Assembly: GCA_003167415.1 (NCBI GenBank)
Contig: PMTF01000010.1
Coordinates: forward strand, 1 to 64,000
Reading direction: 5' to 3'
From: Acidimicrobiaceae bacterium
GTDB taxonomy: Bacteria; Actinomycetota; Acidimicrobiia; Acidimicrobiales; RAAP-2
DNA length: 64,000 nt
Shown: positions 59,712 to 64,000 of the stretch, piece after piece
Numbering within the stretch: position 1 is the stretch's first letter
How the letters are laid out: every line of letters starts with the position of its first letter
Translations under genes and position numbers: made by a program
Notes under the pieces: generated by a model
Told to the model about the DNA's origin: nothing
Databases searched by the model: none
What the model saw: the letters and a program-made list of their open reading frames with translations, nothing else

Positions 59712-61607
59712 CTAGCTCTTCCAGATTTGGTCCCAGCGCGCCGCTCCGGCGTCTGGGCTGAGGCAGCGAGTCGTACCATCACCGGCAGTTCCCGATACCC
59801 AGTTCTGCACGTTCGACCTCGCGGCCCACGCATTGACCGTTGTGTCAAGCATGACGTAGGGAATCTCGATCGCGAAGCGACGGTTCACCGCCTGCCACGC
59901 AGTCTTTTCCGCCGCCGAACCGGGACGCGCGGCGAGGGCTGCCAACAAGGAAGTCTCGACCACGGGGTCGGCCTGGTGGGCGAAGTTCACCGCACCCGCG
60001 ATCTGGGTTCCGGCCGGAAGTCCCGCCATGCCCAAACCTCCAACGGCCGGTGATGACGTCGCTGACTGGGAGTTCCACCACACATAGTTCTCCGACTGGT
60101 CGGCGCCACCGAATTGGTTCCAGCCCGCGCAGTCGTACTCGCCGTAAATCACGTTGTTGATGAGCGTGCTCTGGACAGCTGAACGGGGCGTGATCGTGAC
60201 GCCGATCTTCGCAAACTCCTGCTCGAAGAAAGCGAAGGCCTTGGTCGCGCTTGCACTGCCGGATACGATGTCCATGACGAAGGCAACCTTGGATACGTTG
60301 TTCTTCGCCTTGTAGGCGTCGACGAGGGCTTTGGCCTTCGTCGGGTTGTAGGCCGGGTAGCCGGGGTTCTTGTAGAACGGCGAACTCTTTCGGAAGATGC
60401 CATCCGCGATCGCACCCACGCTGTCGTCAATTACCCGGAAGTACGTACTGCGATTGACGGCCATGGCCAAGGCCTGACGAATGCTTTGGTCGTTCACGAC
60501 TGGCTTCATGGTCGTGTCCCACTGCCCCGACGACGGGTTGACGGCGCCCATGGTGCCGATCCAGTCAGCCTCTTGGACCAGCAGCGGCGGCGCCTGACCC
60601 TTCAAGATGTACGGCAGTGAACCAGGCACGGTCGGTGCGAATTCGCCGGCCCACGCGAAGTACTGGTTCATCGTTCCCGTCGTGTTCATGATCAAGAAGT
60701 TGAGCCCTGGGTCGCGCGGCGCGTGGATGTCCGTAACGTAACTGACGCCCTTCATGTGCTTGAAGGCATTAATCTGCGGACCATTCTGTTGAAGGATCAT
60801 GTCCACGTTACCGGCCTGCAGTGCCTGGTTACGGGCTTCGGGGTCGACGATCGTCTTGAAGTGAATGTTGCTCAAGTACGGCAACTGACGACCGTGCGCG
60901 TCCGACTTCCAGTAGTTTCCGTTCTTCGTCAGTTGGGACTCAACGTTCACCTGCCAGGACTTCACCTTGAACGGACCGGTGCCGATGGGGTTGCCCGTGT
61001 ACGTGGGCACGAATGAGGTCGGGTGCGCCATGTAGCTGATCTGTTGCTCGCACAAGAAGATCGGGAACGACGAGAACGGAATCACCAAGTTGTACGCAAC
61101 GGTGAAACTGTCCACTTTCGTTACCGAACCGATGATTGGCTTAATTGCTAGGCCGACCGTGGGGTCGGCGTTGGCGGCGACCCAGTTGGCTACAACTATG
61201 TCGGCGTCCAATGAATCGCCGTTCGTGAAGGTGACGCCCTGGCGAAGGGGAATCGTCCACACCGAGTAATTCGCGTTCGGGGTGGCTGAGAGCGCCAGCA
61301 TCGGCAGCGCGACCTTTCCATTCGCCGACACCACAAAGAGTGGATCGTAGAGCGCGTTGGCGACACAAAAACCTGAGGCGTCCAACTTGCCTTGTGCGCC
61401 GTTAAAAACGTGATAGTTCGGAACATCGGAGAGAGTCCCGACGGTCAGCGTCCCCCCACGCCTCGGCTTTCCATTGTTCACACCAATTGCGGCGGCGCTG
61501 GCCGAGGTGGCAAGAAGATCGTCAACGATCGATCCGGCCAGTGCGACACCACCAATTGTGGCAGCTGAGTGAGTTAGGAACGATCGGCGATCGAACGTGG
61601 ATGACAT
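59712..61607 (-). CDS. ABC transporter solute-binding protein, family 5
   Basis: 631 residues. A Tat-type signal is at the N terminus (DRRSFLTHSAATIGGVALAGSIV, twin Arg at 7-8), so export is probably folded, through Tat. The mature part has family-5 (dipeptide/oligopeptide/nickel) features: GGTLTVGTLSDVPNYH, VWTIPLRQGVTFTNGDSLDADIVVANW, GTGPFKVKSW, LNFLIMNTTG and QSIRQALAMAVNRSTYFRV. No permease or ATPase gene is adjacent, so its partners are elsewhere. The ligand is unknown; the divergent NCS1 permease and the amine genes around 50 kb leave several possibilities. Confidence 0.92.
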   Translation of the reverse strand: MSSTFDRRSFLTHSAATIGGVALAGSIVDDLLATSASAAAIGVNNGKPRRGGTLTVGTLSDVPNYHVFNGAQGKLDASGFCVANALYDPLFVVSANGKVALPMLALSATPNANYSVWTIPLRQGVTFTNGDSLDADIVVANWVAANADPTVGLAIKPIIGSVTKVDSFTVAYNLVIPFSSFPIFLCEQQISYMAHPTSFVPTYTGNPIGTGPFKVKSWQVNVESQLTKNGNYWKSDAHGRQLPYLSNIHFKTIVDPEARNQALQAGNVDMILQQNGPQINAFKHMKGVSYVTDIHAPRDPGLNFLIMNTTGTMNQYFAWAGEFAPTVPGSLPYILKGQAPPLLVQEADWIGTMGAVNPSSGQWDTTMKPVVNDQSIRQALAMAVNRSTYFRVIDDSVGAIADGIFRKSSPFYKNPGYPAYNPTKAKALVDAYKAKNNVSKVAFVMDIVSGSASATKAFAFFEQEFAKIGVTITPRSAVQSTLINNVIYGEYDCAGWNQFGGADQSENYVWWNSQSATSSPAVGGLGMAGLPAGTQIAGAVNFAHQADPVVETSLLAALAARPGSAAEKTAWQAVNRRFAIEIPYVMLDTTVNAWAARSNVQNWVSGTAGDGTTRCLSPDAGAARWDQIWKS

Positions 61608-62412
61608 CTTTGTCCCGCTTTCCCCCTGGAGCTCCGGCCTTGTGCTGGCGCTCCTACTGGTCGCAACTTAGCAAGAACCCATCGAGAAAAAAGGCCACAA
61701 ATCTCCTCGGGTTATAATCCCAGGGCCCGACGGGCAGGGCGACGCCGATCGGACCCTGGGAAACTCATGCGCGGCCGTGTGGGTGACGGCCAGCGAGGGG
61801 TGCAGAGCGTCGTGACATCGATCACGGCGGTAATGGTCGCTGTGATATTCACAACGCGAGTTCCGGCGACTTTGAGTGCCTTCGCCCACTGATTCGCCGT
61901 GAAATGTCGTTGAATCAGCGAGGAGTGTTCGTTCGGAATGGAAGATCGAAACCGGGGTCATTGCAATCGATGCCGCATTCTTGCCGTATATCCCTGGCGA
62001 AAGTGCGGTACTGGCGAACAGTGTTCGACAGGTTCGGGCGCAGTACGTGGTTTCATTTGCCTCGCTGCTTTGCGGTGCCCAGCGACGCGTCGACCGGTCA
62101 GTCACGTCGTCCGTCGTTACCGAGATGAATTCGGTGCGATCAATAGTTCTCACGGTCATGGTGAACATCGTGAAACTCGCCCTCTATCTCGAGTCGCCTT
62201 GCATCGAGACACACCCATCTTCAAAGGTCGGTTTGTGAGAGCCTTGTGAAAGTCCTTCGAGGCACTTTAGATGGCCATAAATGGCGCTTCTTGCCCGATC
62301 GTGGAGTACTCACCCTGTATTTAGCTGATAATGCTCGATCCTTGGCGAGTTCCGCCTGAATCGAGGTAGATAACCATTAAATCGACAAGATTGAGATCGT
62401 CTTTTCTTAAAG

Positions 62413-62508
62413 CAGAGCCCAGACGGAGGGGGGGCCGTCTGGGCTCTGAGAACTGAGGAAGTGGTGCATCAGGGCCCGGATGGTAGGGAGGGACCACCCG
62501 GGCCCTGA
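62413..62508 (+). ncRNA. Two paralogous hairpins with G-rich loops
   Basis: Hairpin 1 pairs CAGAGCCCAGACGG (62413-62426) with CCGTCTGGGCTCTG (62435-62448) around AGGGGGGG. Hairpin 2 pairs TCAGGGCCCGG (62469-62479) with CCGGGCCCTGA (62498-62508) around a loop with TGGT-AGGGAGGG-ACCA inside. Both end in CTGAGA and align base for base, so they are duplicates of one structured element. Compensating changes (CAGA/TCTG in one, CAGG/CCTG in the other) support selection for pairing. The strand is assumed from the downstream permease. No known riboswitch class is recognised. Confidence 0.5.
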
Positions 62509-62598
62509 GATTGTGTCGACACCTATTACTTAGGTGTTCGTTGCTGTGGCACCTCGCGCATTTGCACCGATTCTGCTCGAGGTCACTTCACCAGCGAA

Positions 62599-62694
62599 CC
62601 CGGAAGAAGGTCCTGCGTGTCGTGGGCCTCTCTTCCGGGATCGCTGGTACATGGGAGTTTCGCTTTCTGTCTCGAGTGGGGGATATCGAGACAG
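62599..62694 (+). ncRNA. Two further hairpins before the permease gene
   Basis: Hairpin 3 pairs CCCGGAAGA (62599-62607) with TCTTCCGGG (62631-62639), with AGG/CCT continuing inward. Hairpin 4 pairs CTGTCTCGA (62667-62675) with TCGAGACAG (62686-62694) around GTGGGGGATA, again a G-rich loop. They may belong with the two upstream hairpins to one leader or small RNA. They lie about 190 bases before the permease start. Confidence 0.4.
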
Positions 62695-62883
62695 GGACAT
62701 CTTCCTCAATGAGTGTGTGGATGACATTGGGAGGACGTAAGAAGGAATTAAAACTCGAAGTTCGTCACGAAGTTGTCACGAAGGCCTCATGAACGGATTG
62801 AATTCGGGCATACTGGGCGCGTACGACTAGCACCTCACGGAGTCGTATCAGGGGCACACCAGCTATTAGGGAGGACCACACGA

Positions 62884-64000
62884 GTGGCGACAGGCATTGA
62901 TATTCACGACGGATCATCGGGCGACGAAGCCTTCAAGGTTGAACGACGAGGCATTGACTACGTGCCCGAGAACGAGCGCTGGGCGACCCCGCGCAACATC
63001 GCCGCCCTCTGGGCGGGTACGTCGATCAACGTCGAGTACTTCATCTACGGCGCACTCTTGATGGGCTTCGGCTTCAGCTTCTATACGGCGCTCGCGGTCA
63101 TCATCATCGGCAATCTCTCGTATTTCCTCTTGGGACTCGCGTCACTGCAAGGTCCCGAGGCCGGCACGACGGCCTTCATGATCTCTCGGGCGCCCTTCGG
63201 CATTCGAGGTTCGCGGTTGCTCAGTTTCTTCAACTGGCTCACTCAATTGGGATTCGAGACCGAGGGACTGATCCTGATTGTCGGCGCGGCACTCGTGCTG
63301 ACCCAGATGGCCGGCCTCCACACCTCGAGTGGTTTGAAGGTCGCCTACATCATTCTCGCGGCGGCGATTCAGGCCGTGATGCCCTACCTGGGTCACGCGA
63401 CGATGGTCAAGGTGCTCCGCGCGCTGATCATTCCCTTTGGCGCGATTTTCGTGTTGTTGGCGATCTATGACTTCAAGCACGGGTCCGCGAGTTTCAAGGG
63501 CTTCGGCGGAGGTTGGGAGCTCTTCACCGCGGGGTTGGCCTTCACCTTCGCCCTGTCCGGGGTCGGCTGGACGGAGTGCGGCAATGACTACACCCGCTAC
63601 GTCGCTCGCGACGCGAGCAAGGGATCCATCGTCGGCTGGATGTTCCTCGGCACGGCGATTCCCGAGATCTTCATGATGGTCCTCGGTGCGGCCACGTTCA
63701 CGTTCATCTCCTCGAGTGCGCAGTCGGCTGACTGGAACGGTTCGAATCCCTTCGAGGCGCTGCACGTACAGCACATCATTCCCAGTTGGGTGGTCGCGCT
63801 CTTTCTGATCTTCGCGATCGTGCAGCTGTTCGGCATCAACTCACTCGATCTCTACTCATCCGGCGTCTCGCTCCAGGCGATGGGACTCAAACTCAAGCGC
63901 TACCAGGCCGTCGTTCTCGACAGCTTCCTCGCCTGTGGACTCACGATCTGGGCCATGTTCCAGTCGACCTTCTCGCTCTACATGAGGGAGTTCGTCGGCG
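62884..64000 (+). CDS. NCS1-family nucleobase permease (partial, runs off the window)
   Basis: Starts at GTG 62884, with GGGAGGA about 8 bases upstream, and stays open for 372 codons to the window edge, so the C terminus is missing. Landmarks of the nucleobase:cation symporter-1 (cytosine/purine/allantoin) family are ERRGIDYVPENERWATPRNIAALWAG at the N terminus, LASLQGPEAGTTAFMISRAPFGIRGSRLLSFFNW (helix 2 to 3) and SGVGWTECGNDYTRYVARDASKGS (helix 6 to 7). Many helices follow. The substrate is probably a purine, cytosine or related ring compound. The preceding hairpins could be a leader that controls it. Confidence 0.9.
   Translation, partial: MATGIDIHDGSSGDEAFKVERRGIDYVPENERWATPRNIAALWAGTSINVEYFIYGALLMGFGFSFYTALAVIIIGNLSYFLLGLASLQGPEAGTTAFMISRAPFGIRGSRLLSFFNWLTQLGFETEGLILIVGAALVLTQMAGLHTSSGLKVAYIILAAAIQAVMPYLGHATMVKVLRALIIPFGAIFVLLAIYDFKHGSASFKGFGGGWELFTAGLAFTFALSGVGWTECGNDYTRYVARDASKGSIVGWMFLGTAIPEIFMMVLGAATFTFISSSAQSADWNGSNPFEALHVQHIIPSWVVALFLIFAIVQLFGINSLDLYSSGVSLQAMGLKLKRYQAVVLDSFLACGLTIWAMFQSTFSLYMREFVG

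Follow-up and report, generated by a model that had tools for sequence, protein, structure and literature searches.

A conserved family of C-rich-loop hairpins behind DUF5666 genes and their remains in uncultured Acidimicrobiaceae: a candidate anti-Shine-Dalgarno RNA

Results

Tandem hairpins in the gap between the SBP and permease genes

The 64-kb window analyzed here (the whole stretch of 64,000 nucleotides) carries, in the gap between an SBP gene and a divergent NCS1 nucleobase permease gene, hairpins that are confirmed here and are conserved in a genus of uncultured actinobacteria. Their structure, covariation, synteny and loop conservation, as well as the retention of the hairpin where a neighboring gene of the DUF5666 family is absent, are directly observable in the related genomes. 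We put at even probability the reading that they belong to an RNA specific to the genus, with loops that base-pair to the G-runs of Shine-Dalgarno sequences in the manner of 6C/B11 or sX13, while matching neither Rfam model. The features to which the text refers are as follows:

62413-62448, minus strand: H1, second tandem hairpin, 14 pairs, loop CCCCCCCU, followed on the minus strand by CTTTAAG
62469-62508, minus strand: H2, 3'-end hairpin, 16 pairs, loop CCCUCCCU, anti-Shine-Dalgarno-like; based on the repeat finder, model R1, pair counts and a loop predicted to be unpaired
62530-62652, minus strand: 40-codon relic frame in place of the DUF5666 gene, without a Pfam match, frameshifted in the sister species G034
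62590-62648, no strand assigned: H3, imperfect palindrome inside the relic frame, 18-nt arms 94% complementary with 23 nt between them
62666-62693, minus strand: H4, 5'-leader hairpin, 9 bp, loop UAUCCCCCAC (plus strand: GTGGGGGATA), 13 nt before the relic-frame ATG
62738-62753, minus strand: conserved upstream block TTTA-N5-TTCTTA, a candidate promoter missed by the sigma-70 scan
62176-62222, minus strand: degenerate second copy of the H4 region, a probable trace of tandem duplication of the unit
61715-61763, minus strand: degenerate third hairpin copy near the SBP gene, loop UCGCCC, a weak R1 match
61665-61677, minus strand: conserved stretch TTCTTGCTAAGTT that separates the hairpins from the SBP gene downstream, resembling an extended -10 by eye
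62868-62875, plus strand: AGGGAGGA, presumed Shine-Dalgarno sequence of the permease, with 7-base complementarity to the H2 loop, which makes it a possible target

A preliminary description of this DNA had reported four consecutive hairpins in a noncoding gap of about 1.3 kb, and all four are recovered, both in the sequence and by a repeat finder, with the positions, stems and loops it gave; the gap itself runs from 61608 to 62883 between the flanking genes, 1276 bases. Read on the plus strand, H1 is a perfect 14-bp stem with loop AGGGGGGG and H2 consists of 11 bp, one mismatch and 4 bp with loop AGGGAGGG (sequence and repeat finder for both), whereas on the minus strand the A.C mismatch turns into a G-U pair and H2 into a fully paired 16-bp stem. 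That the two are duplicates, as proposed, is borne out by the CTGAGA common to both and by the paired changes through which the copies differ. H1 and H2 have the top scores among the 11 hairpins scoring at least 30 in the window, and the region folds with z-scores of -8.5 on the plus and -10.6 on the minus strand (0 of 100 shuffles equally stable on each), such that the hairpins exceed chance. Structure prediction leaves the loops of H1, H2 and H4 open. Rfam returned zero matches at gathering score in the window, in line with the suggestion of a possible small RNA of no recognized class, and a sigma-70/consensus scan of 61600-62900 gave 0 promoter-like and 0 terminator-like sites.

The four hairpins do not form a single set: H1 and H2 are paralogous and covary, while H3 falls outside the conserved set and H4 is a separate 5' element without covariation. 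H3 is probably incidental; as a candidate conserved part it was rejected, since it sits in the decayed reading frame and one of its arms is altered in G034. H4-like stems precede the DUF5666 gene in relatives, many of them with C-rich loops; in a 17-row alignment 76% of the H4 cells are paired and there is no two-sided change, and H4 was accordingly dropped as a covarying structure.

A hairpin family conserved across the genus

When 62300-62900 was used as a DNA query against 100 related genomes, G034 matched over its full length at 92% and many others only in the permease leader; when the loci were read individually, the same gap in relatives again contained the same type of hairpin. The covariance model from homologous gaps that the preliminary description had proposed was built from an alignment of 20 hairpins (model R1), and conserved pairing was found. 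R1 matches 50 of the 99 genomes of the genus, our own included, at E <= 0.1, some of these matches being weak. The hairpins it finds nearly always adjoin an SBP_bac_5 gene, a DUF5666 gene or both: among the 30 loci returned by the genus search, 29 have an SBP gene adjoining the hairpin and the remaining one (L066) has a DUF5666 match, and each of five further R1 genomes inspected has one or the other. In an order-wide search, 9 of 397 genomes matched at E <= 0.01; the 3 that lie beyond the genus (E 9e-4 to 0.0085) are weak and near what chance would yield for 397 genomes, and a wider spread in the order was rejected. The genomes compared are drafts.

In an alignment of 37 distinct hairpins read on the minus strand (the 42 available less four degenerate copies near SBP genes and H1 of G034), 99.4% of 517 cells are paired and 11 of the 14 stem pairs show two-sided change. 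Cells with two-sided change number 73, against 20.2 in shuffles, with 0 of 500 shuffles as high, and slid registers of the same alignment give at most 4 pairs with such change. Covariation in alignments of homologous gaps thus upholds the earlier view of tandem paralogous hairpins with conserved pairing.

The same data bear on whether the arms might be a DNA palindrome, operator or mobile repeat with no RNA role. Long inverted repeats do lie near two promoters here, and G017 has a second copy at another locus, but the arms covary instead of keeping a fixed half-site, the spacer between them is itself conserved, and our genome, searched with R1 up to E 10, has matches in this gap only (H1, H2 and the weak copy at 61715-61763); we give this explanation hardly any weight. 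A dispersed repeat was rejected on the ground of that single gap, the exception being G017. The second G017 copy (L155, G017:C39:80740-80786) has loop TCCCCAAT and neither an SBP nor a DUF5666 match in the stretch taken; by eye, it adjoins a frame resembling an MFS transporter.

Strand and position

The preliminary description read the hairpins on the plus strand, as a ligand- or protein-binding leader of the nucleobase permease. This direction is probably wrong: we place the element on the minus strand because in many relatives it lies downstream of the stop codon of a minus-strand DUF5666 gene, its wobble pairs fit that strand, and the permease has a leader of its own. The assignment is supported but not proven. 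With G-U and A-C wobble types scored alike, the minus strand shows 21 G-U against 6 A-C in 42 distinct hairpins and, without the four degenerate copies, 16 against 3 in 38, both counts uncorrected for kinship; C.A mismatches of the plus strand are G-U pairs on the minus. A 20-row plus-strand alignment has 94.6% of cells paired and two-sided change in 9 of 15 pairs, a figure whose comparison with the 99.4% of the minus strand is an indication only, the hairpin sets being different.

In many relatives the minus-strand gene before the hairpin is PF18914 (DUF5666; E 1.9e-8), and the distance from its stop codon to the anchored hairpin is 9-16 nt in 13 of 17 loci; in the other 4, which carry two hairpins, it is 26-90 nt. 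By its position the element looks like the 3'-end element of a minus-strand transcript rather than a permease leader. In favor of the latter are the location of the gap upstream of the permease and loops that are G-rich on the plus strand; against it stand the wobble asymmetry, a gene order in which the hairpin marks the end of a minus-strand gene, a hairpin-to-permease distance ranging from ~0.35 to 1.2 kb across loci, and the permease's own conserved leader, closer by, at 62803-62888, which together leave the permease leader very unlikely.

The leader at 62803-62888 is strongly conserved in its own right. It comprises the site CATACT, a stem built around CTAGCACCTCACGG and, upstream of the GTG start, a conserved TTAGGGAGGACCAC; it has no Rfam match at gathering score.

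The C-rich loop and the DUF5666 gene

To count loops that were not selected for their sequence, strong hairpins were sought at 78 loci, one per genome, of which 21 lacked an anchor and were not scored and 7 were anchored with no listed hairpin. The remaining 50 of the 78 have a strong hairpin here, and in 45 of these 50 its loop is C-rich (CTCCC, CCCC or CCTCC). One of the seven, G115, nevertheless has a C-loop in the locus survey, as does the unanchored G118 by eye. Among the other hairpins of the window (1-61600), CTCCC or CCCC loops occur in 0 of 27 on the plus and 0 of 34 on the minus strand. In a set of 38 hairpins CCTCCC is found in 31, CTCCC in 32 and CCCC in the other 6, counts that are no fair test since these hairpins, like those of the locus survey, the wobble counts and the 37-row alignment, were picked for C-rich loops; the unselected count is the 45 of 50. 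Two or more C-rich loops are present in 10 of 45 C-loop genomes, and in G003 one of the two hairpins has a loop without CCC. Six genomes missed by R1 have a wholly different stem with loop ACGCCUCCCC or AUGCCUCCCC, containing CCTCCCC.

The five strong hairpins without a C-rich loop are those of G058, G101, G114, G021 and G030, and behind the gene G058 has loop CAAAGACTT, G101 TCATCGCGCCTG, and G021 and G030 GCGA. Outside the anchored count, G019 has a hairpin with a GAAA loop and a T-run, and in G132 a gene fragment is followed by a plain stem. Because G058, G101, G021, G030, G019 and G132 have another hairpin there, the C-loop is not obligatory, and a plain terminator can take this position.

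The C-loop hairpin is present in 24 of 26 genomes with the DUF5666 gene (exceptions G021 and G030) and in 21 of 23 without it; the two gene-less exceptions, G049 and G114, have both SBP and permease. In the window the gene is replaced by the relic frame, which in G034 stops after 22 codons. Between these two species, a single sister comparison, H1, H2 and H4 have substitutions at 0 of 101 aligned positions and the rest at 33 of 393, with indels changing loop length in H1 and H2. On a tree of 49 SBP sequences the presence of the DUF5666 gene requires 9 changes, at least 4 of them forced by well-supported branches, where presence was entered by hand, the fragment holders G026 and G005 were scored as without, and changes rather than losses were counted. 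Relic frames and fragments point to loss rather than gain, a direction that is supported, not proven. The decayed gene region of G008 (L053) also contains, 260 nt upstream of the SBP start, a long and nearly perfect stem capped by an AGTC loop.

Scored with spacers of 4-6 allowed, the upstream block is exact in 19 of 19 tested gene-less C-loop genomes and in 0 of 6 gene-less genomes without the C-loop. Of 18 tested genomes with both gene and C-loop, 12 have it exactly, 5 have a near match and 1 lacks it; gene-bearing genomes in which it is absent include G123, G021, G030 and G058. The degenerate H4 region at 62222-62176 and the hairpin at 61763-61715 suggest that the RNA unit was once duplicated, which may explain part of the long gap.

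These distributions also frame the strongest competing explanation, in which the hairpin is a terminator or stabilizer at the 3' end of the DUF5666 transcript, halting transcription or acting as a barrier to exonucleases ahead of the SBP promoter; its C-rich loop would be inherited and partnerless. Its position closely behind the DUF5666 stop in relatives speaks for this, as do the ordinary hairpins at the same place in other genomes, one of them (G019) with a T-run, the TTTTTT that follows the second hairpin of the G010 pair, and the strong hairpin just past the stop of a DUF5666 paralog elsewhere. Conversely, most copies have no T-run, the gap has no terminator-like site, the loop stays C-rich as the stem varies, even where the whole stem is different, and the hairpin is found in nearly all gene-less genomes. 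We regard this explanation as a serious possibility, if short of even. The paralog in question (L110, G000:C3:8566-9216), in our own genome, is 37% identical, and the loop of its hairpin is GTA.

Flanking genes and candidate targets

As seen from the SBP gene the hairpin lies upstream, beyond the conserved TTCTTGCTAAGTT. Being on the same strand, and ~110-240 nt before the SBP start in most surveyed loci, it could be a cis-regulatory leader, with transcription running from the upstream block through the hairpin into the SBP gene and attenuated by the hairpin. We hold this to be improbable: the promoter-like TTCTTGCTAAGTT intervenes between the two, the C-loop hairpins are ~270-915 nt away in the window's clade, where the SBP-proximal copy has no CUCCC loop, and G049 and G114 have the SBP gene without such a hairpin. 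The SBP leader itself (61608-61677, minus strand) contains CACAAGG and GGGGGAAAGCAGGA-like stretches, conserved upstream of the ATG in most aligned loci.

Were the loops instead to act by pairing with Shine-Dalgarno sequences, candidate partners are available on both sides of the gap. The predicted pairing of the H2 loop with the permease AGGGAGGA has an energy of -13.6 kcal/mol, and those of the H1 and H4 loops with the GGGGGAAA region of the SBP gene -12.5 and -13.3 kcal/mol. Such loop-Shine-Dalgarno pairing spans 7-8 bases, and the motif is common in Shine-Dalgarno sites. Loop-target covariation, sought across relatives for the permease Shine-Dalgarno sequence, was not seen; L051 has AAGGAGGA there with an unchanged loop.

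A hairpin near the permease of G131 (L141, 243-287 in the SBP orientation) has 20 bp and the loop CCCCC, with TTTATTT behind it; the stretch taken has no DUF5666 or SBP match, and this is perhaps another C-loop RNA.

Discussion

In light of these observations, we propose that the gap would encode one minus-strand RNA unit of ~300 nt, comprising the upstream block, H4, the decayed reading frame and the tandem hairpins H2 and H1. The unit would derive from the transcript of a DUF5666 gene with one or two hairpins with CYUCCC-type loops at its 3' end; the window's species and other lineages presumably lost the coding part but kept the C-loop hairpins. It may act as a small RNA or as a regulatory 3' UTR. 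Each stem would present an unpaired C-rich loop to G-rich Shine-Dalgarno sequences, the nearest candidate targets being the AGGGAGGA of the divergent permease and the GGGGGAAAG of the SBP gene, and this pairing would block ribosome binding, as has been reported for 6C/B11 and sX13. Transcription of the unit, target pairing and repression are steps that we infer. The fuller evolutionary account, namely a noncoding regulatory RNA arising from a DUF5666 mRNA with anti-Shine-Dalgarno hairpins, from which the coding part was lost several times to leave a 6C-like small RNA consisting of the upstream block and the 3' hairpins, and whose coding part living species still show as intact, broken or deleted, is offered tentatively.

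To our knowledge, the origin of C-rich-loop small RNAs is little documented. If the unit is such an RNA, dozens of related genomes display stages on the way from a protein-coding transcript to an RNA of hairpins only, and it would represent a new RNA family, in a group of Acidimicrobiaceae that has received little study and where nothing exceeds the cut-off of the 6C model.

Three known types of element invite comparison. The first is the intrinsic terminator, which the hairpin resembles in being a GC-rich stem close behind a stop codon in relatives with the DUF5666 gene, and from which it differs in mostly lacking a T-run (except in the second G010 hairpin), in its conserved loop and in being kept in gene-less genomes.

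The second comparison is with 6C/B11 (RF01066) of Actinobacteria. Its model has no match at gathering score in the window and is absent from the 6 Rfam matches of the gap up to E 5; membership was rejected on this score. Across the genus it scores 0 of 99 genomes over the cut-off, the best reaching 24.9 bits against 47, a weak test given that 0 of 14 control genomes were over it either and only 1 of these 14 known genomes was found at all; in the order 1 of 198 genomes is over the cut-off. Weak 6C matches occur in 7 of the 99 genus genomes, read by eye only. The 24.9-bit match, in G025 (L033, 1501-1578), is a sub-threshold 6C-like hairpin with a C7 loop, in a genome that has no R1 match at E <= 0.1.

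Small RNAs with C-rich loops are known from distant bacterial groups (PMC10470900, PMC3771888). The sX13 RNA of Xanthomonadaceae (RF02232) belongs to another phylum and has three loops, and membership was rejected, the score being 18.8 bits (E 0.68) where the cut-off is 50. The likeness lies in stable stems with C-rich loops: sX13 has stable stems with 4C/5C loops and represses mRNAs with G-rich motifs near their start sites (PMC3771888). In Mycobacterium abscessus, either loop of B11 can repress a reporter with a six-G tract in its 5' UTR (PMC10470900). The hairpins described here differ from B11 in their location, the 3' end of a DUF5666 gene or of its relic, in being single in many cases, and in having CYUCCC oftener than a pure C-run; what they share with it are C-rich-loop hairpins in an actinobacterium, of which the window has two, H2 and H1, on the minus strand.
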